Shown in pieces: positions 4,491 through 32,939 of a stretch of DNA of 63,276 nt. Where the stretch lies: positions 1 to 63,276 of the forward strand of contig JAQMWT010000606.1 of the NCBI GenBank assembly GCA_029834535.1, read 5' to 3'. A model generated the notes under the pieces. The model was not told where the DNA came from and did not search any database. It saw only the letters and a program-made list of their open reading frames with translations. The first letter of the stretch is position 1; the number at the start of each line of letters is the position of its first letter. A program made the translations under genes and the position numbers. This stretch comes from Chrysophaeum taylorii. Its lineage: Eukaryota; Sar; Pelagophyceae; Pelagomonadales; Pelagomonadaceae.

Positions 4491-5696
4491 CTACGCAGGG
4501 GTGGGGCTGGTCGTAGCTTGGTATTCCTTCAGAAGATTGGTGGCGATGACGAGATGCATGATCTCCGAGGTACCCTCGTAAATTTCAGTGATTCGGGCGT
4601 CCCTGTAGTAGCGCTCCGCGGGCAAGTCGGTGACGAAGCCCATGCCCCCCAATATCTGCATGGCAGCGTGCGCGGTTTTTGTCGCGGCCTCCGAGGCGCA
4701 GAGCTTGGCCATGGCGGCACTTTTCGAAAACGGCATCCCGGCATCCTTTTCAGCAGCCGCGCGCCACGTCAAGAGACGGGCCCCCTCGATGGACGTAGCC
4801 ATCTCCGACAACTTGAGCTGGATCGCGTAGAGCGACGATATGGGCTTTCCGAACGCGTCTCGGTTGGACGAGTAGTTGGCGGCGAGTTCGAGCGCGGCCC
4901 GCGCTATGCCCAATCCCTGGGCGGCGATGCCGATGCGGCCCGAGTCGAGAATCCGCATCGCGATCTTAAAGCCGTCGCCCTCTTTGCCGAGCAAATACTC
5001 GCGCGGAACGCGCACGCCGTCGAGTATCAACGAGGCGGTCGTCGAGGCGCGAATCCCGAGCTTGTCTTCGGGCTTGCCGAAGGAAAAGCCGGGGGCGTCG
5101 GTGGGAACCACAAAGGCCGAGATGCCCTTGTGTTTCTTCGATTTGTCTGTCGTGGCGAACACGACGGCGGCATCAGCGACGCCTCCGTTGGTCGTCCACG
5201 CTTTCGTGCCCGAAAGAACCCACTCGCCCTCTTCGTAGACCGCCGTCGCCGCCGCCGCCGCCGCGTCCGAGCCGTTCCCGGGCTCGGAGAGCCCGAACGC
5301 CCCTACCCTCTCCCCGCTCGCGTACGGCCTCAGAAATTCTTCGAGCAATTCTTCCGAATTTAAGTATTTTTCGATCGCGTCGCAGTATAGGGAATTGTGC
5401 ACGCTCATTATTGCCCCCGTCGACGCGCAGCCCCTCGAAATCTCCTCGACGGCCGCTGCGTAGCTCACGGTGTCCAGTCCCGCCCCTCCGCGACCTTCGC
5501 TCACTTGGCACCCCATCATACCAATCCCCCCGAGCTCGCGAACCACATCCCTGGGAAACGCGTGCGCCGCGTCGAGGGCCGCGGCAACGGGAAAGAGCTT
5601 ATCCTCGGCGAACTGCCGCGCGACCTCCCGCACGCACCGCTGGCTCTCGCTCAGGCTGAACATCGACCGCGCTCCAATAAGACTCCTGCGGCCCAT
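4491..5696 (-). CDS. Short-chain acyl-CoA dehydrogenase, probably mitochondrial
   Basis: FAD flavoprotein of 401 aa that would oxidise short acyl-CoA to trans-2-enoyl-CoA and pass electrons to ETF in beta-oxidation. Length and order match the ACAD family: helical N-domain (about 12-125), beta middle domain with GAFGLSEPGNGSD near 132-144, and the typical KLGIRAS segment. The C-terminal helical domain contains QILGGMGF and the ITEIYEGTSEI signature. By family knowledge the Glu of the IYEGT segment is the catalytic base of SCAD-type enzymes. The short basic N-terminus MGRRSLIGARSMF could be a mitochondrial presequence. Intronless, converging on the bZIP gene. Branched-chain acyl-CoA dehydrogenase is the main alternative. 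Confidence 0.9.
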   Translation of the reverse strand: MGRRSLIGARSMFSLSESQRCVREVARQFAEDKLFPVAAALDAAHAFPRDVVRELGGIGMMGCQVSEGRGGAGLDTVSYAAAVEEISRGCASTGAIMSVHNSLYCDAIEKYLNSEELLEEFLRPYASGERVGAFGLSEPGNGSDAAAAAATAVYEEGEWVLSGTKAWTTNGGVADAAVVFATTDKSKKHKGISAFVVPTDAPGFSFGKPEDKLGIRASTTASLILDGVRVPREYLLGKEGDGFKIAMRILDSGRIGIAAQGLGIARAALELAANYSSNRDAFGKPISSLYAIQLKLSEMATSIEGARLLTWRAAAEKDAGMPFSKSAAMAKLCASEAATKTAHAAMQILGGMGFVTDLPAERYYRDARITEIYEGTSEIMHLVIATNLLKEYQATTSPTPA

Positions 5697-5944
5697 CGCT
5701 TTTGAGCCGCAGAGCTTCTAATTGTATAGGGCCGCGCGCCTTTGGTTGAAAAAAAAAATAAAAAAGTTAGAATAGAAGGGGGCAGTGCCTATACCCTGCC
5801 GCGAAGGGGTAATCAATTTTGAAGGCGTCGTTTACTAACTAATAATAACAATAATAAAGGTCGAGTAAACTTTTCCTAACGACGCTGCAAGTGCGCAAGT
5901 AACTCCCGAATAGTCTAGAACTTATTACTAACTCGTTGGTGCTG

Positions 5945-7228
5945 ATGTGGCGCATTCACGGGGTAGACTACGACCTCCGCGGGTTGAGCCGCGTCCACCC
6001 CGGCGGCTCGGTTGCGATCGATCTGGTCCAGGGCATGGACGCGACCGACTTGTTCGAGCAATTTCACGTTCGCAACGAAAAGCATCGCGCACTGCTATCC
6101 AAGTACAGCGTGACGCAACGCGCGGCGGCGCCCGTGTCGGCATTTCACGACGACGTCAAGGCGATGGTCAGAGAGCACTTTGGGACCACCTCGCACAAGG
6201 CCTCGCCCGCGCACCGGTGGCAAATGGTGGTCCTTTGCCTCGCGTACGCCTCGTGTTGGGTCGGGTGGTGGCGGGGCTCGATCTTTGTCGGCGGCTTCTG
6301 TCTCCCCGTCGTGGCATGGCTCGTGATGACCAACGCCTCGCACGACGCCTCCCATTTTGCCTTCTCCACCACGCCATTGCTCAACGAGGCGTGGCTCCTC
6401 GCCGCGTCTCCGTTGCTCTACTCGTGCGCGAGCTGGTACGTCCAGCACTGCGTCTCCCATCACCTCCACACTAACGATCCCGACAACGACGCCGACCTTC
6501 AGCACCACCCCTTCGCCAAGTGGCACGCCAAGGTCGACCGCCGGACCACGCCCGCGAAAAACCTCGCGTGGCACGCGACGGCCTACCTCGTCGCGACGCT
6601 CAACATGTCGCTCGTCCATCCCTGGAAGTTCGTCGTGGTACCCCTCGCCAAAACCATCCTGCTTGGTCACCCCCCCTTTGATGACCAAACCACCAAACAC
6701 CACGAAGCCGCCTTTTTTCGCGCGGCCGACCTCGTCCACCGCTCCGGCTTCTTCGCCAAACGTCCGCACCGCCTCGTCTTCGCCCTCGCGGCCTGGGTGG
6801 CCTCGCTCCTCTTCCTCGTCACCCCCCACCTCCGCTTCGACCTCCCAAGAGCCCTCGCGCTCTCCCTCCTGCCCTACGCCCTCACCTCCCTCGTCTTCAT
6901 GCTCGTCACTCAGATTTCGCACGTCCAGCTGGCCTGCCAGCGACCCAATAAATCTCACGACTTTTTCCAGCGCCAAGCGGCGACCAGCCTCGACTATGCG
7001 ACGCAATCCCACCTTTGGCGCGTCTTGACGGGCGGCCTCAACCTCCAGTCCATCCACCACGTCCTCCCCGGCGTATCGTCCTGCCACTACACGGACCTCT
7101 ACCCAAAGTTCTACAAAATTTGCCAGGATCACGGCTGCGCACCCGCGATCAAGCCAAACATCCTCGCCGCCCTCAAGTCCCACCTTTCCCACGTTGCCGA
7201 CCTCGGCGGCGGTTGTGCCGCCGAATAG
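5945..7228 (+). CDS. Cytochrome b5-fused front-end fatty-acid desaturase
   Basis: Membrane di-iron desaturase of 427 aa, probably in the ER, introducing double bonds into polyunsaturated acyl chains. The start is the first ATG (5945). The N-terminal cytochrome b5 fold has the haem motif HPGG at 18-21 and a second His at 41. Three histidine boxes follow: HDASH (133-137), HCVSHH (168-173) and QSIHH (368-372). Gln in place of the first His of box 3 is the hallmark of front-end (delta-4, -5, -6 or -8) desaturases. Hydrophobic pairs lie around 95-130 and 275-325. The b5 domain is compact and starts almost at the initiator, shorter than usual. Regioselectivity cannot be read from sequence. A sphingolipid desaturase is the main alternative. 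Confidence 0.88.
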   Translation: MWRIHGVDYDLRGLSRVHPGGSVAIDLVQGMDATDLFEQFHVRNEKHRALLSKYSVTQRAAAPVSAFHDDVKAMVREHFGTTSHKASPAHRWQMVVLCLAYASCWVGWWRGSIFVGGFCLPVVAWLVMTNASHDASHFAFSTTPLLNEAWLLAASPLLYSCASWYVQHCVSHHLHTNDPDNDADLQHHPFAKWHAKVDRRTTPAKNLAWHATAYLVATLNMSLVHPWKFVVVPLAKTILLGHPPFDDQTTKHHEAAFFRAADLVHRSGFFAKRPHRLVFALAAWVASLLFLVTPHLRFDLPRALALSLLPYALTSLVFMLVTQISHVQLACQRPNKSHDFFQRQAATSLDYATQSHLWRVLTGGLNLQSIHHVLPGVSSCHYTDLYPKFYKICQDHGCAPAIKPNILAALKSHLSHVADLGGGCAAE

Positions 7229-13235: not shown

Positions 13236-16200
13236 TCAGCAGGAGGGTGAAAGGGAGGGTGAAAGGGTAACGAGGTAGGCTGGGTAGACGTGGTGAGTGT
13301 CGTAGAGGACAAAGAGGGAGGGGTCGTTGTCGTCGTCGACGGTGGCGTCGTAGCGCAGGGTGGGGGCCTGGACTTGGAGGGGCGGGAGTTGCATCTCGGG
13401 GGAGCCGCCGCAGTAGGCGCCGACGACGACGCGGAAGACGAGGACGTGGCGGAGGTCGTCGTGATCGTGGCTGGGCTCGTACGTGGTGAAGAGGTAGGTT
13501 CCGTGGCCAAAGTCGCCGCGGGTGGCATCGAGGTGGACGTCGAGGCCGCGGTCGACGATGCGCGTCGCGTCCGCAGCCGAGGGAGGCTCGAGATAGAGGG
13601 GAAATTTGTCGGGGCGGGCGGTGCGCTTTTGGACCTCGTGGCGCGCGGCCGCGTAGGGTCGCCAGAGGCGCAAGTTTTCGATCCTGGTGACGGAGCGGAC
13701 ATCGTGGGGGTGGAAAGGGTCGGAGACGTCTCGCCACTCGCGCGATCCGACGACGAGAGGAAGAAGGCGGGTTTCGTCCGAGACGTCCCAGTGCTTTGGC
13801 GGCAATAGAAAGTCCAAGGTTGAGAAGGTGGTCGGCGCGACCGAGGGCTTGACGCACTGTTTCGGGAACCAACCCATGCGCGGCGCCGCGGAAGCCGAGC
13901 GGCCAAGGAGGGGCGGCATCTCGATGGCGTCGTCGGTTATTTTGAGCCGAGGTTCGTCGTCGTCGTCGTCGTCGTCGTCGCGGCGAGAGACGACGAGGCA
14001 TCCGAAGAACCAGTCGCCCTCCTCGTGCTCGGAAAGGACAGCGACGGTCGCTCCCCTTTCGAGGGCCAGACAGTCGGCTCCCTGGATGTCGGCCGGCATG
14101 TTCCTGACGCTCGGAAGACCGCGGACCACTCTCTCGGATAACGCCGGAACGGCCGCGGCGGATTGGTGCTGGACGTAGTCGGTCTGGATCATCGCGCAGA
14201 CGGGGCGTCGGAAGCCCGTGTCGAGGCGGGTCTGGCACATGAGTTCGAGATCCACCTCGTACTTGGCCTCTATGCCGCCGCGAGAGATTTGGTTGTAGGC
14301 GTCGAGCGCTAAGGATTTGGGAGCGTTCGAATCCTTGCGCCGCCGTAGATAGAGGTCCCCCAAGGCGCGCTGGACGAAGGGGTCCTCGTACCGCACCCAG
14401 AACGTGTTCTTGTTGTTCCACTTGGCCACGAGGTGCCGGAGATTCTCGCGCCAATAAAAATCGAACCTCACGACGCGCGTGTCCGGTACGAATTTTATCC
14501 GCCTCGAGGTCCCCGTGACGAGGTTGCGCTGCGTCATGTGCGCGACGTTGATCTCTCGGCCCGCGGGCGCCGCGGCGTTGAGGATGACGCTGTCGTGCGT
14601 TTCGTTGTCGTCGTCCTCGACCGACGACGTCGGCGACTGTTGTTGTTGTTGTTGTTGTTGTTGTTGGTACGCGGTCGTCGTCAAGGCCTGGACCGTCAAA
14701 GTGCAGAGGTGATGGCTGCCCGGCGTTGTCTCCTGTCTCCGGAGCTGGGCCTTGAGGTTTTCGGGGAGTTGCACGAACCGATGATAAACCTCGGAGATCT
14801 GGTCTTGGACGAGGTCGTCGTAGGCGATCCAAGATACGTCTTCCTCGTCGTCGTCGGGGAGTTGAAGGGCCGTACCACTACTGCTGGATAGGTGGTGGTC
14901 GTCGTCGCCGGCGCGCGCCCTCGACTCCCAGTACCACATTTCGAGGCAGTGAGCTTCGCCCATCTCCGACCGCTCGAAGACGACCGTGTTTGCAGGTTGA
15001 TCGAGGACCGACGACACGACGATGTCCTTCGCGCCCGCCTGGCACAGAAGCACGTGGGCGCTGCGCTCCTCGTGCTGGAGCGGGTCGAACGCCTCCACGA
15101 CGCAATGAGCGTTCAGCGTCGCGCTCAGCCGCGCGAGCTTCAGCCTCGACAATTCGGCCTTGTGGACCCACGCACCCAAACCCACCGAGCAGCACGCGAC
15201 GACGCAAGAGCAAGCGGCGACCAAGATCGCGATCAACGACGGCGATCGAGACGACGACGAAGACGATGAATCGTCGTCGTCTTCTTGTTCGGAAGCGAGG
15301 CGGAGCTCGCCGTCGTAGGATCCGATTGTTTCGAAGGCATGTGTTCCTTTGATGAGGTTTCGGAGGTCGAGCGAAAGAGGCGAGGAGGAGGCGGAGAGAA
15401 GGGACGAGCGGACGCGCGTCGCGTTGGTTTCGTTCTCGAGGGTCGCCGCCAGGAGCGAGACCGCCCGGACCCAAAACCCCGAATAACCGGCGACCGTCGT
15501 CGGATCGCCGTCGACATCAAAGCCAGAGTACGTATCGGTAGCTACGTACCCGGCCGTCGATTCGAGGAAACCAGAAACCGAAAGATCGTCGTCGGAGGTC
15601 GCGACGTCGAGAATCGCGTCGACGGTCGGCAGGTTCGTGAGCCACGCGACGCCCGGCTTGAACAAAAGGCGCTGCGACTCCGGGTAGGCCGCCACGTAGA
15701 CGGCATCGACCCCGGTTGTTGGAATCTCGACGTCGCGGACTCTGGCAGGATCGAAGGAGATGCCGCCGCCGGCGCGGCGCCGACAGCCGACGCACGCGTC
15801 GCCTACCACCTCGCCTCGAAAAACGTCGAGAAAGGCCTGGGCCGATTCCTGGCCCCACAAGGTGTCGTCGTGGACCACAACGACGCGATGCCAGTTGTTG
15901 CGCTCGGTTAGAGAAACGACTGCGGTTGCTATCGTCGGCTCGGGGGTCGCGAGCCTGACGAGAAGCGGGTAATCGACGCCCAAAAAACTGGTCGTCGTCG
16001 TCGCTGCCGGCGAGACGACCACGTAGTCGCCGTCGTAGCCCGTGACGTTTTCGAAAACCGCCCGTGCCTCCTCGGAGGCGAGGGCTGCGACGTCGTGAGA
16101 CCGCGCCGCAACGACCGCCCGAATCTTTTTTGGAATCTTCAGAATATCTCGCGTCGACTCGACCTCGTAAATCTCGATCGAAAGACCGAGCTCGACTGCT

Positions 16201-17627
16201 GCTGCCGCCGCCCGGCCGCACTCCTCTTTGCGGACGAGGCCGTCGCAGGGCGGGCACAACAAAGCAATCGGAGCGCGCGGCGCGTTCTGGACGATTCTCG
16301 GCGGGTCTGCTGCGACGGCCCCGTCGTAGTAGGCCCCCGTAGTTCCGTCGTGGAAGGCTTCGAGGTAGCGAGCGGCGGCAAAGAAGGGCGCTACCCCGAG
16401 CCTGCGGGTGATGTTTGCGGTGCCCGCCGCCGCCAGAGTCCTCGACATCGCAACCGTGTAAACCAGCGACGGGTCTAGGTTGATGGACTCGAGACGCGTG
16501 CCGTCCCATTCGACGAGCACGCCCCGGCTCGGCACGGCCGGAAATTCGTCGGCCGCGACGACGCGAGCCACCATATCCTCAACATCGGTGCCCCTCATCG
16601 TCGCGATCACCACTTCGGCGAGCGACGGGTAGGTCGCCAAAAGATGGGACTCGAGGACGTGGGCTTTGGGTACGTCCGCTTTCAGCTCTGCGGTCGAGAC
16701 GAAACCGAGATCGGCGCCCGCATACCACTCGAGAGCGTCCGCGAACAGATACCCCGCCGCGAGGATGTCGAGGGTTTCCGAGACATAACCGGCGTGGCCT
16801 CGCACGGGGTCGCCGAGTCTCTCGTCGACTTGTCGCTTCCACTCATCGATCTGTGTTTTGACGTCCGCGTCCTCGGGGGCGTCGCACCCGAGTTCGACGA
16901 CCGATCGGCTCTGCGCCGCGACATCAATTCGCGTCACGTACGCGCCGCCGCTCCGTACCCCCGCGATCACGACGTTCCGGCCCGCCCAGTTTTCGATCGT
17001 AAAATTCCCCTCGTACCCCACCACCAGCACCACGTCCAGCCGCACGAACTTGAGCGCCATCCCGACGACCGCGTCCGTCGTCGTCGTCGAAGAGCCGCCC
17101 GCGAGGTCTTGGGCGTCGCGCTTAGAAAACCCTCGCACGATGACCGCAACCAGGTCATCGACTTCAACGCGGTCGAGGGCGCGGGTGAGGGCGCGCTCGT
17201 ACCCGATTCCGCCGGTCTCCCTCAGCGCGAGGGTCACGAACTTTCCGTCTCTGGCCATGATCGGGTAACCGTCCAAGTTTGTCGCCACGAGAGTTTTGTT
17301 GTCGTCGAGATCGTCGCGAAACCCGAGGGCGGCGCCCGAGTAGTTGGACATTTCGAAGAGGAGGCGCGAGGCATTGGTGGCGTAGAAGAGGCCGGTCCCG
17401 GTCGCGAAATTCCCCGCGTCGATTCGCACTCCCACCATCGCCGCCTCTCTTCGCGCCGCCCCGCCCCAGCACGCACAGGGATCCGAATCGAGGCCGCACT
17501 CGACGAGGTCTGGCGTCATCGGGTAGACGGCCCCCTCGACGTCGGCGGTCACCGAGAGGACCACCGCCGACGCCGAGGAGGACACCAAGAAGAAGAAGGT
17601 GGTGATGATTTGGCACTTCAATAACAT
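13236..17627 (-). CDS. Type I transmembrane receptor: 5'-nucleotidase-like and PBP1-like ectodomain, WWE x2, SH3, PARP-like tail
   Basis: 1463 aa, unspliced, cell-surface receptor-like. The ATG at 17627 gives a clean signal peptide (1-21). About 30-250 resembles the metallophosphatase half of 5'-nucleotidases (CACWGGAARRE then RIDAGN), and about 280-440 its C-terminal domain. About 452-775 resembles a type 1 periplasmic-binding/ANF-receptor fold. One TM helix lies at about 795-821. Inside are a first WWE domain (about 884-1047, split by polyGln, ending HMTQRNLVTGTSRR), a second WWE (about 1055-1147), an SH3 (about 1182-1260, GDWFFG then GWFPKQCV) and a PARP catalytic-like region (about 1335-1455, FGHGTYLF, YDTHHVYPAYL). 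The PARP Tyr (about 1378) is present, but the usual HGT His and the catalytic Glu are not seen, so activity is doubtful. An in-frame ATG at 17759 would overlap the divergent gene. Confidence 0.75.
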   Translation of the reverse strand: MLLKCQIITTFFFLVSSSASAVVLSVTADVEGAVYPMTPDLVECGLDSDPCACWGGAARREAAMVGVRIDAGNFATGTGLFYATNASRLLFEMSNYSGAALGFRDDLDDNKTLVATNLDGYPIMARDGKFVTLALRETGGIGYERALTRALDRVEVDDLVAVIVRGFSKRDAQDLAGGSSTTTTDAVVGMALKFVRLDVVLVVGYEGNFTIENWAGRNVVIAGVRSGGAYVTRIDVAAQSRSVVELGCDAPEDADVKTQIDEWKRQVDERLGDPVRGHAGYVSETLDILAAGYLFADALEWYAGADLGFVSTAELKADVPKAHVLESHLLATYPSLAEVVIATMRGTDVEDMVARVVAADEFPAVPSRGVLVEWDGTRLESINLDPSLVYTVAMSRTLAAAGTANITRRLGVAPFFAAARYLEAFHDGTTGAYYDGAVAADPPRIVQNAPRAPIALLCPPCDGLVRKEECGRAAAAAVELGLSIEIYEVESTRDILKIPKKIRAVVAARSHDVAALASEEARAVFENVTGYDGDYVVVSPAATTTTSFLGVDYPLLVRLATPEPTIATAVVSLTERNNWHRVVVVHDDTLWGQESAQAFLDVFRGEVVGDACVGCRRRAGGGISFDPARVRDVEIPTTGVDAVYVAAYPESQRLLFKPGVAWLTNLPTVDAILDVATSDDDLSVSGFLESTAGYVATDTYSGFDVDGDPTTVAGYSGFWVRAVSLLAATLENETNATRVRSSLLSASSSPLSLDLRNLIKGTHAFETIGSYDGELRLASEQEDDDDSSSSSSSRSPSLIAILVAACSCVVACCSVGLGAWVHKAELSRLKLARLSATLNAHCVVEAFDPLQHEERSAHVLLCQAGAKDIVVSSVLDQPANTVVFERSEMGEAHCLEMWYWESRARAGDDDHHLSSSSGTALQLPDDDEEDVSWIAYDDLVQDQISEVYHRFVQLPENLKAQLRRQETTPGSHHLCTLTVQALTTTAYQQQQQQQQQQSPTSSVEDDDNETHDSVILNAAAPAGREINVAHMTQRNLVTGTSRRIKFVPDTRVVRFDFYWRENLRHLVAKWNNKNTFWVRYEDPFVQRALGDLYLRRRKDSNAPKSLALDAYNQISRGGIEAKYEVDLELMCQTRLDTGFRRPVCAMIQTDYVQHQSAAAVPALSERVVRGLPSVRNMPADIQGADCLALERGATVAVLSEHEEGDWFFGCLVVSRRDDDDDDDDEPRLKITDDAIEMPPLLGRSASAAPRMGWFPKQCVKPSVAPTTFSTLDFLLPPKHWDVSDETRLLPLVVGSREWRDVSDPFHPHDVRSVTRIENLRLWRPYAAARHEVQKRTARPDKFPLYLEPPSAADATRIVDRGLDVHLDATRGDFGHGTYLFTTYEPSHDHDDLRHVLVFRVVVGAYCGGSPEMQLPPLQVQAPTLRYDATVDDDNDPSLFVLYDTHHVYPAYLVTLSPSLSPSC

Positions 17628-17718: not shown

Positions 17719-20653
17719 ATGTGGCGGCTCCTTGTTCGTGGAGGGGACGAGACGCGCATGATGTGGGACGAGGTGCTCCCGCGCGTCCAGAAGGTGATCA
17801 CGCTCCTGCGGTACGCCGAGCGGCAGGTGACGACCGTCGAGGCCTACGCGGGGCTCGCCGTGAAGATGGTCAAGCTGGTGACGGCGTGCGCTTTGCGGAT
17901 CGAGGAGGACTACCTCCAGAGCTCGGGGACCTGGAGCGCGCACTTCGAGGAAACAGAGACGACACTCGCGGACGTCGGCGGCCTCAACACGCTCCAGTCG
18001 CGGCTCTTCGAGGCGACGTATCGCGTCAAGGTCTCGGCGCTGCTCGGGGAGGTCGACTCTGCCGTCGGGGCGCTGGGGGCGGCCCTCGCGGAAATCCCAA
18101 CGGCCGAGGAGGATTTGGCGGGGGTCTGCGACCAGCTCGAGGCCATCGACCGCGAGATCCAGGGCTCGGTCCTCGAGGAAGCGGGCGTCGACGACGTCTC
18201 CGAAGTCCTCGCGCGAGAGGTCGTGCTCGCCGGCGGGGACGAGGCGGTCCTCGCGTCGAACTTCCTCGAGAAGCTGCGGGGGCTCGCGCTGGAGCACGAC
18301 CTCGCCAAGGACGACATCGATTTGATGCGGCAGCTCCTCGCGGTCTCCGACGACGCGAGCCTGCGCGGCGACGTCCAACGCGCGCGCCGCGGCGTCGAGT
18401 GCGAGGTCGAAGACGACGAGGACTTTTTGCGGAGCGTCGTTGATTTCGACGAGATCCAGCAGCACGAGGAGATGCGGCGGCGTCAAATCGAGCGCGACGA
18501 GACCCGCGAGCAGCTCGGTCGCGAGAAGATTTTGGTCGAGGCCGTCGCCGCGGCCGTCCGCCTCACGTCCGAGCCCGCCGAAGCCTCGACCGTCTACGCG
18601 ACCAACAAGGCAGAGACCGACCGCCTCGACGCCGAGACCGCAAAGCTCGTCGCCGAGACGGCCATGCTTCAGCTCGAAGAGGCTCACGAGGATAACCGGC
18701 TCGACGCCAAGCGCCGGCTCTACGAGCAGGCCCTCCAAGCCCGCCAGAAGGCCCAAGCCCGCAAGTTCTCGTCGTCGATGGCGATCGCCATGGGGGGCGA
18801 CGTCGGGTCGAACCGGGGATCGGCCAAGGATGGGACCCTGGCCACCGAGAGCAGCGTCCGCGAACGGTCCGATTCTTTCAGCTCGCAGCAGTCGTCGACC
18901 ATCTTCTCGCTCGGATCGATCGTCCGCGAGTGCGAGGACGACGACGACAACGTCTCGATGGCGTGCTCGATGCTGACGCGCGACCCTCCGACCGACAACG
19001 CGCGCCGCGCCAAGGCCGCTGCCAAGCTCTCCGAATTATGCGGCGGCAAGAACGACGAGGTCTCGGCGCGCAGGAGGTCGCAGGCGGCTCGCCGCGGCGC
19101 TCTCAAGGCGCTCGTCGCGATGCTCAACATGCACGTCCGCCAGAACGAGCTCGACGCCGTCGCCCGGTGCCTCTGCGCGCTCGCGGCCCACCACGCCGAC
19201 AACAAGGCCGCAATACTAGACGCCGGAGCACTCCTGGTCGTCGTCGACCGCGTCGCCGACGCGGGCTGCGACAACAGATTCCTCGTGCCGCTCTGGCGCG
19301 CGCTCACCAACAGCGACGCCTACGAGGGCGCCCTCCTCCACGCGGCAGACACGGCGGTCGACCACATCGTCGCCGTCGTCGAGCACAGCTACGTCGCCGA
19401 GGAGCAGTGCTTGGCGACCGAAGCCCTCTTCCAACTCATCTGCGCGACGCATCACACCTTCAACGCCCTCCGCGCGCTCACGGGCGTCCTCCCGCGCCGC
19501 CTCCACGACGACGCGCGCGAGGCCGCCAAGGCTCGCGTCGCCAAGGAAACCGCGACGCGCGCGGTCGTGGTCATCCTCGGCTTCTCGGCCCAAGACATCT
19601 TCACCGTGCCGGGCGCCATCTCCACCATAGAAAGCCTCGCCACGGCCGGCCGCTTCTTCGAGGGCGGCGGCGGCGAGGAAGACGACGCGGCCCTCGCCGT
19701 CATCAAATCGCTCTACGATTTTCTCGTCGCCGAGTCCGATACCCAGATGATCTCTATCCTCCGCATCGAGGACCCGACGCCCGCCGCGTGGACGGCCAAG
19801 GAGCACTGCGCGCGAGCCCTCCGCCGCCTCATCAAGGCTGCCGAAGACTCGGACAAAGCAGCGCAGGGCCTCGCGATCGACACCAACCCCCACCACTACT
19901 CGGTCTCAAAGCCCCCCGCCGCCTCGCGCTCGGCCCAGCGCGTCGCGACCGCCCTCGCGCGCAAGGGCATCCTCCCCCCCCTCACGGCCGTCATCAAGGC
20001 CGCCGGCGCCCAGAACAAGCGCGTCGTCTTCGCCAAGCAAGAGGCGGCGAGAGTCGTCAGACTTCTAGCCGAACACGAGCGCAGCCTCGTCGACCAGTTC
20101 GTCACGCTCGACACCATACCCGCCTTGCTCGCCCTCATCGAGGTCGTCAACAAGGACGACCCGAAGGAGGCTGCCGTCCTCGCCTTGTGGTCCTTGTGCC
20201 GCGACTCGAAACCAAACCGCTCTCTCCTCGTCAACTTGCCCTCGGGGCTCAAGGCCGTCATGCAGCTCGTCGCCCGCACCGGCACCAATCCGTGAGTCTT
20301 ATTGTTGGTCTTCGACGGACTTACTGCTGTCCCGCAGCTCGGACGAGGCCTCCTCGCGTCTTCTCGCGGCACTCGCGACCGACGACCCGAGCCTCGAGAA
20401 AAAGATACGCAACGAAAAGCACCTCTTCAACGACATGCTCCGCACCCTCGAGTGGAACGTCAACTACGGCGACACCGTCCACGTCAAGGCCGCCGCCAAG
20501 GCCCTCCGCGACCTCATGAAGCCAAACTCCTCCGAACCTACCTCCATCAAAAAGACCCCCGCCAAACCCTCCAAGGCCGCCAAGGTCGGGATTGCGCGGA
20601 CCCAAAAAAAAGCTCCTTTCTCCCTCTTCCGCAACTCGCGCAACAAAAAATAA
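17719..20653 (+). CDS. Armadillo/HEAT-like repeat protein with N-terminal helical region; one 46-nt intron
   Basis: Spliced CDS 17719-20291 joined to 20338-20653, 962 aa. Without splicing the frame ends just after the donor; splicing restores a frame running to a Lys-rich C-terminus and TAA at 20651. Residues 1-290 are strongly helical; the pattern around 35-110 is loosely like F-BAR/BAR helices (weak). About 295-350 is a charged coiled coil (DRLDAETAKLVAETA). From about 428 on are helical repeats with short Gly/Ala turns typical of armadillo folds. The tail is basic. Such proteins act as scaffolds; the partner is unknown. It shares a 91-bp divergent promoter with the receptor-PARP gene, hinting at a common pathway (inference). 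No catalytic motif is seen. Confidence 0.75.
20292..20337 (+). other. 46-nt spliceosomal intron
   Basis: The donor is CC|GTGAGT at 20292 and the acceptor CCCGCAG| ends at 20337. Removal keeps the armadillo-gene frame across the junction, creating a Pro codon from 2 nt plus 1 nt. The C-terminal exon fits the preceding codon use. A pyrimidine-rich CTGCTGTCCCGCAG precedes the acceptor. This is the only intron supported here. Confidence 0.85.
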
Positions 20654-31359: not shown

Positions 31360-32823
31360 CTAGGTCAAGGAGGAGGATGGCGACTCGGAGGTGCGCTTGT
31401 AGGTGGTGGGGCTGGCGGCGAGGTTGGTGTTGCCAGTCCAGGCGAAGGAGCGGAAGCTCTGGATGCGGTCGTTGAAGGTAGCGTCGTCGTCGGGGATGTC
31501 GAAGTTGACGCGTCGCTGGACGGACTTGAGGTCGTCGTCGGCCTGGGGTTTGGGGGTGGGGACGTAGAGGTGGCCCTGCTTGTCCTGGTGGAGAAAGGCG
31601 GGGAGGGGCGGGCAACCCTCGGGGGGGTCGAGGTCCCCGCGCTCGGCGAGCACCCAGTCGATCGACCCGAAGAAGGGCGCTGAAAAGATTGTCTTTGGTG
31701 TCGCGCGCTTGTTCGGGTACTTGTGGAGGAGCGCCTTGAGGATTCCCTGGATATGGGGGTCGGCGAGGGGCGGGTCTTCTCCTTCTTCTTTTTCATTCCC
31801 CCGTTGGATTTTTTTGTTTGGGAAAACGGGCTGCGAGTTGAGAATATTCGAGAAGAGGATTCGGGGGGACGGCGCTGCGAAGGGTGTGTCCGTGCCGTGG
31901 GCGAGTTCGTAGACCGAGCAGCCGTAGGCCCACCAATCGACGGCCGTGGTGAGATGGGAGTGTGACCTGAGGAGCTCGGGAGCCATGTAAGCGACTGTGC
32001 CGTTGAAACCGCTCGAGGCAAAGGGCTGCGGACCCCAATAGGAAGAAGACGCCCTCTTCGCAGCAATGACGGTGCTTATCCCAAAGTCGCTCAGGGCGAT
32101 GTGACCGTGCTGATCGATCAGGACGTTGGCAGGCTTGACGTCGCGATGGACGACGCCCTTGGAGTGAAGGTATCGAATCGCGCACGCGAGCTCGGCGGCG
32201 TAAAACCGGACAGAGACGAGGGGAAAGAAGGGAATTTTGCCCGGCGTCCGGCGGCGGCGCTTCAGGCTGTCCCCCAAAGACCCCCCAACGTAAAAGTCGG
32301 TGCACAGGTACAGAGATTCGAGGCTTTGAAACGCGCACCGGAGCGTCACGACAAACCGATGGTGAACGTCGCGCGCCACCGCGCGCTCGCGGAGCACCGC
32401 AGTGCTCGACTTGGTCTTCAGGAGCTGCCTTTTCTTGAGGACCTTGACGGCGAACAGGGCACCGCCGCCGCCCTTGACGCGCGCGAGAAAGACCGTACCA
32501 AAAGCTCCGCGTCCAATCCTACGGATCGCGTCGAGGTCCGACGGCCGCAAAGGCTGCTTCGACAACACGAGCGACGGCGACGGCTTTTGCTCGGGGGTCG
32601 CCTGCTGCTCGGGGGTCACCGGCCGCGCGAGCCGGGCCCCAGAATCACCAAGGTCGACGTATATGGTGTACCCGCTCGGAGACGCCACCTTCTCCTTGTC
32701 GACGACGACGCTCACCGCCGATTCCCGCAACAAACCGAGGTACCGACCCACCATCGTCCCCATGTGCAGGCTGTCGGGCCAGTCCGGCTTGTTCGACGCC
32801 GCGCACTTCTCGTAGTCATCCAT
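31360..32823 (-). CDS. AGC-type serine/threonine protein kinase
   Basis: 487 aa from the ATG at 32823 (the frame extends only to a TTG upstream). The kinase domain spans about 97-385. It has a Gly loop GRGAFGTV (104-111), the VAVK-type Lys in FAVKVLKK (about 127), the alpha-C Glu in LRERAVA (about 146), catalytic HRDVKPAN (226-233), DFG (246-248) and GTVAYMAPELL (about 275-285). All catalytic residues look intact. The C-terminal tail with NFDIPDDDATFNDRIQSF resembles the AGC tail (proline- and turn-rich, FxxF). The 96-residue N-terminal extension has no recognised domain. Nearest families are PKA/PKG/S6K-like; the exact subfamily is not decidable. Intronless. A repeat nest begins 55 bp upstream, leaving a very short promoter. 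Confidence 0.87.
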   Translation of the reverse strand: MDDYEKCAASNKPDWPDSLHMGTMVGRYLGLLRESAVSVVVDKEKVASPSGYTIYVDLGDSGARLARPVTPEQQATPEQKPSPSLVLSKQPLRPSDLDAIRRIGRGAFGTVFLARVKGGGGALFAVKVLKKRQLLKTKSSTAVLRERAVARDVHHRFVVTLRCAFQSLESLYLCTDFYVGGSLGDSLKRRRRTPGKIPFFPLVSVRFYAAELACAIRYLHSKGVVHRDVKPANVLIDQHGHIALSDFGISTVIAAKRASSSYWGPQPFASSGFNGTVAYMAPELLRSHSHLTTAVDWWAYGCSVYELAHGTDTPFAAPSPRILFSNILNSQPVFPNKKIQRGNEKEEGEDPPLADPHIQGILKALLHKYPNKRATPKTIFSAPFFGSIDWVLAERGDLDPPEGCPPLPAFLHQDKQGHLYVPTPKPQADDDLKSVQRRVNFDIPDDDATFNDRIQSFRSFAWTGNTNLAASPTTYKRTSESPSSSLT

Positions 32824-32939
32824 GGTGGTAATCAAACGGTTTTTTTTATCGGACCGTTGAGGAGTTGGGTGGGGGGTTCCTTACTACTAATCGACACATG
32901 TTTGTCTGTCTGTCTGTTTGTTTCAATGTTTGTCTGTCT

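Follow-up and report, generated by a model that had tools for sequence, protein, structure and literature searches.

In the window analyzed here, a 63,276-nucleotide stretch of DNA from the pelagophyte Chrysophaeum taylorii (a stramenopile alga), a receptor-type gene runs on the minus strand from an ATG at position 17627 to a stop at position 13236, with 1463 codons plus the stop. The predicted protein carries a signal peptide, a 5'-nucleotidase-like double domain, a Venus flytrap, a transmembrane (TM) helix, two WWE domains, an SH3-like domain, and a PARP-like tail, arranged as follows.

13236 to 17627, minus strand: whole receptor-type gene, 1463 aa plus stop (reading frame; alignment with P0003)
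17565 to 17627, minus strand: signal peptide, residues 1 to 21 (sequence and hydropathy; boundary set by eye)
16794 to 17564, minus strand: N-terminal (metallophosphatase-like) half of the 5'-nucleotidase-like part, metal ligands lost, residues 22 to 278 (six-member profile; motif check)
16350 to 16793, minus strand: 5'-nucleotidase C-terminal-like domain, residues 279 to 426 (Pfam 5_nucleotid_C, 8.5e-7, over the cut-off; profile)
15303 to 16274, minus strand: Venus flytrap, or type 1 periplasmic-binding (ANF receptor, mGluR-like) domain, residues 452 to 775
15165 to 15239, minus strand: single TM helix, residues 797 to 821 (hydropathy 2.56; matching segment in 17 of 17 rows)
14490 to 14957, minus strand: WWE domain 1 with a low-complexity insert, residues 891 to 1046 (Pfam WWE; alignment with the PARP11 WWE, 0.0071; Foldseek match to the DTX1 tandem WWE, 2.5e-5)
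14181 to 14477, minus strand: WWE domain 2, residues 1051 to 1149 (Pfam WWE, best stretch 1069 to 1143; alignment with the HUWE1 WWE)
13845 to 14072, minus strand: SH3-like domain, residues 1186 to 1261 (Pfam SH3_2, 0.24; best relative P0007, 6.3e-4, below the curated cut-off)
13263 to 13697, minus strand: PARP-like domain with the catalytic His lost, residues 1311 to 1455 (phmmer to PARP12, 2.4e-14; motif check)

Sequence and fold comparisons show this domain order and the homology of each domain, except for the SH3-like one, whose signal is weak. A profile of eight family members, compared with solved structures, matched PARP15 (4.6e-34), 5'-nucleotidases (2.3e-10), and mGluR5 (5.6e-5), each in the expected order.

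The original prediction described a single unbroken frame of 1463 aa, and this was borne out. On base composition alone, the probability that 1462 codons lack a stop is about 5e-17, and the GC content at codon positions 1, 2, and 3 is 0.66, 0.46, and 0.80; therefore, this is not a chance frame. P0003, a protein of 1617 aa from another source, shares 34% identity with the window protein in an alignment covering 98% of the latter, and it contains the same Pfam families. Because of this alignment and the 14 loci with the same order in the C. taylorii genome (described below), we treat the frame as one gene. Its exact start is uncertain, since the frame extends upstream without a stop as far as position 17801. 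A divergent frame of 858 aa on the plus strand (17719 to 20295) has its ATG about 90 bases from that of the receptor gene and no Pfam match at 0.001. Neighboring genes in the window encode an acyl-CoA dehydrogenase (4494 to 5696, minus strand), a cytochrome b5-fatty acid desaturase (5939 to 7225, plus strand), and a protein kinase (31363 to 32835, minus strand), with no evident functional link.

A metallophosphatase/5'-nucleotidase-like ectodomain had been predicted, and its homology was confirmed, while its metal ligand motifs proved to be lost. A profile of six members matches the 5'-nucleotidase 2z1a at 1.2e-14 and CD73 at about 1e-7, with both domains recognizable. Pfam Metallophos has no match in the window protein or the relatives scanned, and none of the metallophosphatase motifs DxH, GD, GNH, and GHxH occurs in the 11 distinct rows that cover their positions. 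The alignments to 2z1a and CD73 include the GD and GNH positions but not that of DxH, whose absence was read from the sequence. The NGGGIR stretch of CD73-type enzymes holds nucleotide-binding residues of the 5'-nucleotidase C-terminal domain, and the aligned positions in the family are occupied by nonmatching residues. The 5'-nucleotidase fold was not among the best 50 fold matches in either of two ectodomain searches, as the flytrap fills both lists. Elsewhere in the genome, a metallophosphatase plus 5'-nucleotidase C protein (C457:7357-9072) does have a Pfam Metallophos match, unlike the receptor family, and it also has EF-hand-like matches under the cut-off.

For the second half of the ectodomain, the predicted PBP1/ANF-receptor-like domain held up: a fold search identified the type 1 periplasmic-binding fold, which is closest, among the fold matches listed, to the flytraps of class C receptors. 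The Pfam ANF_receptor score in the window protein is 22.2 bits, just under the cut-off of 25.4. Of the two ectodomain parts, the flytrap is more likely to bind the ligand. Flytrap receptors seem to be abundant in this alga, with 34 ANF matches in the genome. Several proteins (L048, L049, L050, L051, L053, L058, and L064) combine ANF_receptor with Ephrin_rec_like, L048 falling just under the Ephrin cut-off and L064 having an additional weak match to TRP (an ion channel). At C675:309000-315522 (L031, L071, and L080), a frame of 1180 aa encodes a 5'-nucleotidase-like plus ANF_receptor ectodomain. The frames after it contain TM segments, and one of these frames is similar to the membrane part of the genome's other ANF receptors (weak TRP matches), an arrangement with a similar ectodomain and another output.

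Judged by hydropathy, the window protein fits a single-pass type I receptor, with a signal peptide and one predicted TM helix between the two halves. Residues 797 to 821 form the strongest hydrophobic segment, and a weaker one (186 to 204) falls within the 5'-nucleotidase homology. A hydrophobic segment separates the outer and inner halves in all 17 rows, the weakest being that of P0003 (1.73); several rows have further hydrophobic segments elsewhere, mostly weaker. Glycosylation sequons showed no clear preference for the outer half in the six other members counted.

The two WWE domains of the original prediction were recovered both by Pfam (2.6e-9, in two stretches, over the curated cut-off) and as a fold, since a Foldseek search with the model of the tail returned, besides the DTX1 tandem WWE, the ZAP central domain (6.2e-4). 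The model of WWE domain 2 reached a pLDDT of 79 to 86 over model residues 261 to 320 and was lower before. Each domain has a conserved glutamine: Q1033 and Q1132, in the WWE Gln columns, are invariant in the eight rows, as are the WWE and linker motifs, and they align with the WWE domains of PARP11 and HUWE1. The HUWE1 alignment to WWE domain 2 places the adenine-binding Gln in register, at an E value (0.25) that is not significant alone. Human WWE structures, as described in part of PMC11269756, have a conserved Gln that pairs with adenine, and Q668 mutants of ZAP do not bind PAR according to passages of PMC8853533. The window copy keeps both adenine-binding glutamines and is a candidate ADP-ribose reader. 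The SH3-like assignment is weaker: SH3_2 scores 11.6 bits in the window protein, well under the cut-off of 21.8, is below the cut-off in six of the eight proteins scanned, and is not listed in P0003 and P0009.

The predicted PARP-like tail stood as sequence homology, with no Pfam PARP match and no confident PARP fold. The tail is closest to PARP12, PARP14, and PARP15, with phmmer E values to PARP12 of 1.9e-13 for the whole window protein and 2.4e-14 for the fragment. The Pfam PARP model has no match in the window protein, and the window is also missing from the genome-wide PARP search. The structure model, built with eight sequences, gave no confident fold for the PARP part (mean pLDDT of 43.2), and the PARP rows in Foldseek had E values of 0.09 or worse; the identity of this part thus rests on sequence.

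Of 15 distinct rows, 12 retain the catalytic His; the three that have lost it are the window copy (P0002), P0003, and P0009. We aligned the rows with PARP12 and PARP14 and read the tail positions that we take to form the H-Y-x triad. Where it is fully readable (11 rows), the triad is H-Y-I, or H-Y-V in C379; the C149 row cannot be read past the His. An H-Y-I/L/V triad is the mono-transferase pattern of PARPs. Because the His is so widely kept, with H-Y-I/V wherever readable, the family looks like one of receptor-type mono-ADP-ribosyltransferases. The idea that PARPs make ADP-ribose chains, part of the original prediction, does not apply to the window copy with its lost His, and the intact paralogues have H-Y-I/V. 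The window copy would instead be a pseudo-enzyme, PARP-like rather than a PARP enzyme, that probably works as a noncatalytic partner or reader. The three His-less proteins form one clade, with support of 99/99 on all tail columns and a weaker 82/98 without the PARP columns. Since P0003 and P0009 share the loss with the window copy as a clade, the inactive form recurs in other sources.

The domain order is common to a whole gene family, which supports both the order claimed and the idea of an unusual receptor tied to ADP-ribose signaling. In the C. taylorii genome (70.8 Mb on 697 contigs), at least 14 loci have collinear 5_nucleotid_C, ANF_receptor, and PARP or WWE matches, among 18 places with 5_nucleotid_C. 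These loci lie on C125, C129, C149, C242, C323 (three in tandem), C370, C379, C388, C439 (three), and the window; the remaining four 5_nucleotid_C places are on C366, C675, C148, and C457. The family counts are lower bounds because the family searches rest on a loose first look. A PARP match is present in all of the same-order loci except C149 and the window (12 of 14), and WWE was found by the loose search in 2 of 14, to which a direct Pfam scan adds P0006 and P0007. These two proteins (CTAYLR_008111 on C129 and CTAYLR_008075 on C125, respectively) are contained letter for letter in genome frames. Two family members carry the source names "hypothetical protein" and "Poly [ADP-ribose] polymerase."

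Single open frames span 10 of the 14 loci, and broken or intron-like frames occur in C149, the C439 copies, and C388. The C149 frame contains extra in-frame sequence in its first WWE region and becomes divergent in the PARP part, which is the pattern expected of an unspliced intron; some paralogues are likely to contain introns. The true starts in C149 and C379 are uncertain, because there the earliest Met of the frame falls within the 5'-nucleotidase part. In all four paralogue pairs examined, of which three are combinations of the three tandem C323 copies, dN/dS lay between 0.14 and 0.44 in the outer as well as the inner half. Candidate ADP-ribose erasers are encoded in the same genome, with Macro at three places and ADP_ribosyl_GH at three loci. 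On C439, an ADP-ribosylglycohydrolase-like match (69878 to 70735) lies about 31 kb from the tandem cluster of three receptor-PARP copies (101829 to 123905).

Beyond this genome, the same order is seen in two long proteins, P0003 and P0008. There are also modular relatives, which lack either the 5'-nucleotidase part (P0004 and P0005) or the PBP1 part (P0009). A search of public proteins for this ectodomain fused to a different output, with about 8000 candidates scored, gave no proteins besides P0008 itself, P0006, and P0007. No relative was found in the viral contigs, prokaryote genome contigs, and phages searched.

We consider it reasonably probable that these proteins are a family of single-pass pelagophyte receptors in which a small-ligand-sensing ectodomain is coupled to a cytoplasmic ADP-ribose module, with the window copy as a noncatalytic partner or reader, a function that we infer. 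A small molecule, perhaps amino-acid-like, would bind the mGluR-type flytrap, and the dead 5'-nucleotidase-like part may serve as a structural or dimerization element. On the model of receptor cyclases and pseudokinase receptors, ligand binding could rearrange dimers and so alter the cytoplasmic tail, which might then act, in those paralogues whose His-Tyr-Ile/Val is intact, as a ligand-controlled mono-ADP-ribosyltransferase of cytoplasmic targets. In the window copy, the two WWE domains could hold ADP-ribosylated proteins at the membrane, or the protein could pair with active paralogues, the pairing being a guess modeled on other receptor families. More tentatively, we propose a new class of enzyme-linked receptors in pelagophytes, receptor mono-ADP-ribosyltransferases, in which a ligand of the mGluR-like flytrap outside the cell would switch a PARP-type transferase inside; active and pseudo-enzyme subunits would coexist, and WWE domains would read the mark of the neighboring subunit.

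The ectodomain could alternatively serve in scavenging or adhesion at the cell surface, with the cytoplasmic WWE-PARP part as a constitutive, membrane-anchored ADP-ribose module that is not gated by ligand. The modular relatives lacking one or the other ectodomain part fit this reading, which we nevertheless find unlikely: the flytraps of class C receptors and of receptor cyclases sense ligands, and the similar ectodomain pair on C675 lies upstream of frames whose TM segments are shared with other ANF receptors, as expected for a sensory module. Less likely still is that the window protein is a decaying receptor-PARP paralogue whose function is gone. Its lost His, a PARP domain too divergent for Pfam, and a shortened ectodomain (796 residues before the TM helix versus 884 to 1210 in the other full-architecture members measured) are what decay might leave behind, but the frame is intact over all 1463 codons, the His loss is common to one clade with P0003 and P0009, and the WWE and linker motifs are invariant.

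The original prediction proposed an extracellular nucleotide sensor, and that, or an ecto-nucleotidase, coupled to ADP-ribose signaling has behind it a real homology to 5'-nucleotidases in both halves. Such a role is not supported and appears quite improbable, as the family has lost the motifs that hold the metal ligands and the nucleotide contacts of CD73-type enzymes, and a 5'-nucleotidase half without them would be a poor nucleotide sensor. An artefactual fusion, in which a chance open frame or an error in the gene model joins two adjacent genes, is nearly refuted; the imperfect frames of some paralogues would suit it, yet the 14 loci and both P0003 and P0008 keep the order, and full-length proteins are named for C. 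taylorii. Separately, a reading as a receptor guanylyl cyclase was rejected, as Pfam finds no cyclase domain in the window protein.

Studies of PARP-catalyzed ADP-ribosylation usually treat it as a response inside the cell to DNA damage, stress, or infection. If the ligand-sensing receptor reading is correct, a PARP module used as a receptor tail would place ADP-ribosylation directly downstream of external ligands and would add a new output type for enzyme-linked receptors, beside receptor kinases and receptor cyclases. With the family expanded to at least 14 loci, in an alga whose clade forms blooms, the proposal can be tested with recombinant domains. The parts are known from other systems; the literature searched appears not to describe their combination, or the expansion that gave a family with both active-looking and pseudo-enzyme branches. 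As the original prediction had anticipated, no receptor with this order or with a PARP-type tail was described among the matches listed in the titles and abstract openings of the open-licence PMC literature.

Among known systems, ecto-5'-nucleotidase CD73 and the bacterial 5'-nucleotidases share both domains with the family by profile, and differ in keeping the metal and nucleotide ligands that the family has lost. The ligand-binding domains of class C GPCRs (mGluR, T1R, and CaSR) precede seven TM helices, in contrast to the one TM helix and WWE-PARP tail here. Receptor guanylyl cyclases, such as the natriuretic peptide receptors, likewise have an ANF-type flytrap, one TM helix, and an enzyme-like tail, but the window protein has a PARP-like output in place of a cyclase domain. 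None of the three Guanylate_cyc places in the genome is on a contig with an ANF match. Plant RCD1/SRO proteins combine a WWE domain (in RCD1) with a PARP-like domain reported to be without transferase activity, but they have an RST domain and no receptor part, according to sections of PMC4245714; the same sections mention other TM-bearing PARPs and no receptor with a ligand-binding ectodomain. The inner half most resembles PARP Clade 3 (PARP12, PARP13 [ZAP], PARP11, and PARP14), in which WWE domains precede the PARP domain. Human members have zinc fingers, macrodomains, or only WWE plus PARP in the sections of PMC4245714 concerned, whereas in the algal family a receptor ectodomain and TM helix precede the WWE pair. 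PARP13/ZAP itself has tandem WWE domains and a vestigial catalytic site (from passages of PMC8853533), and the window copy and its two His-less relatives suggest that a pseudo-enzyme branch has been kept in this family as well, as in ZAP and the pseudokinase receptors.
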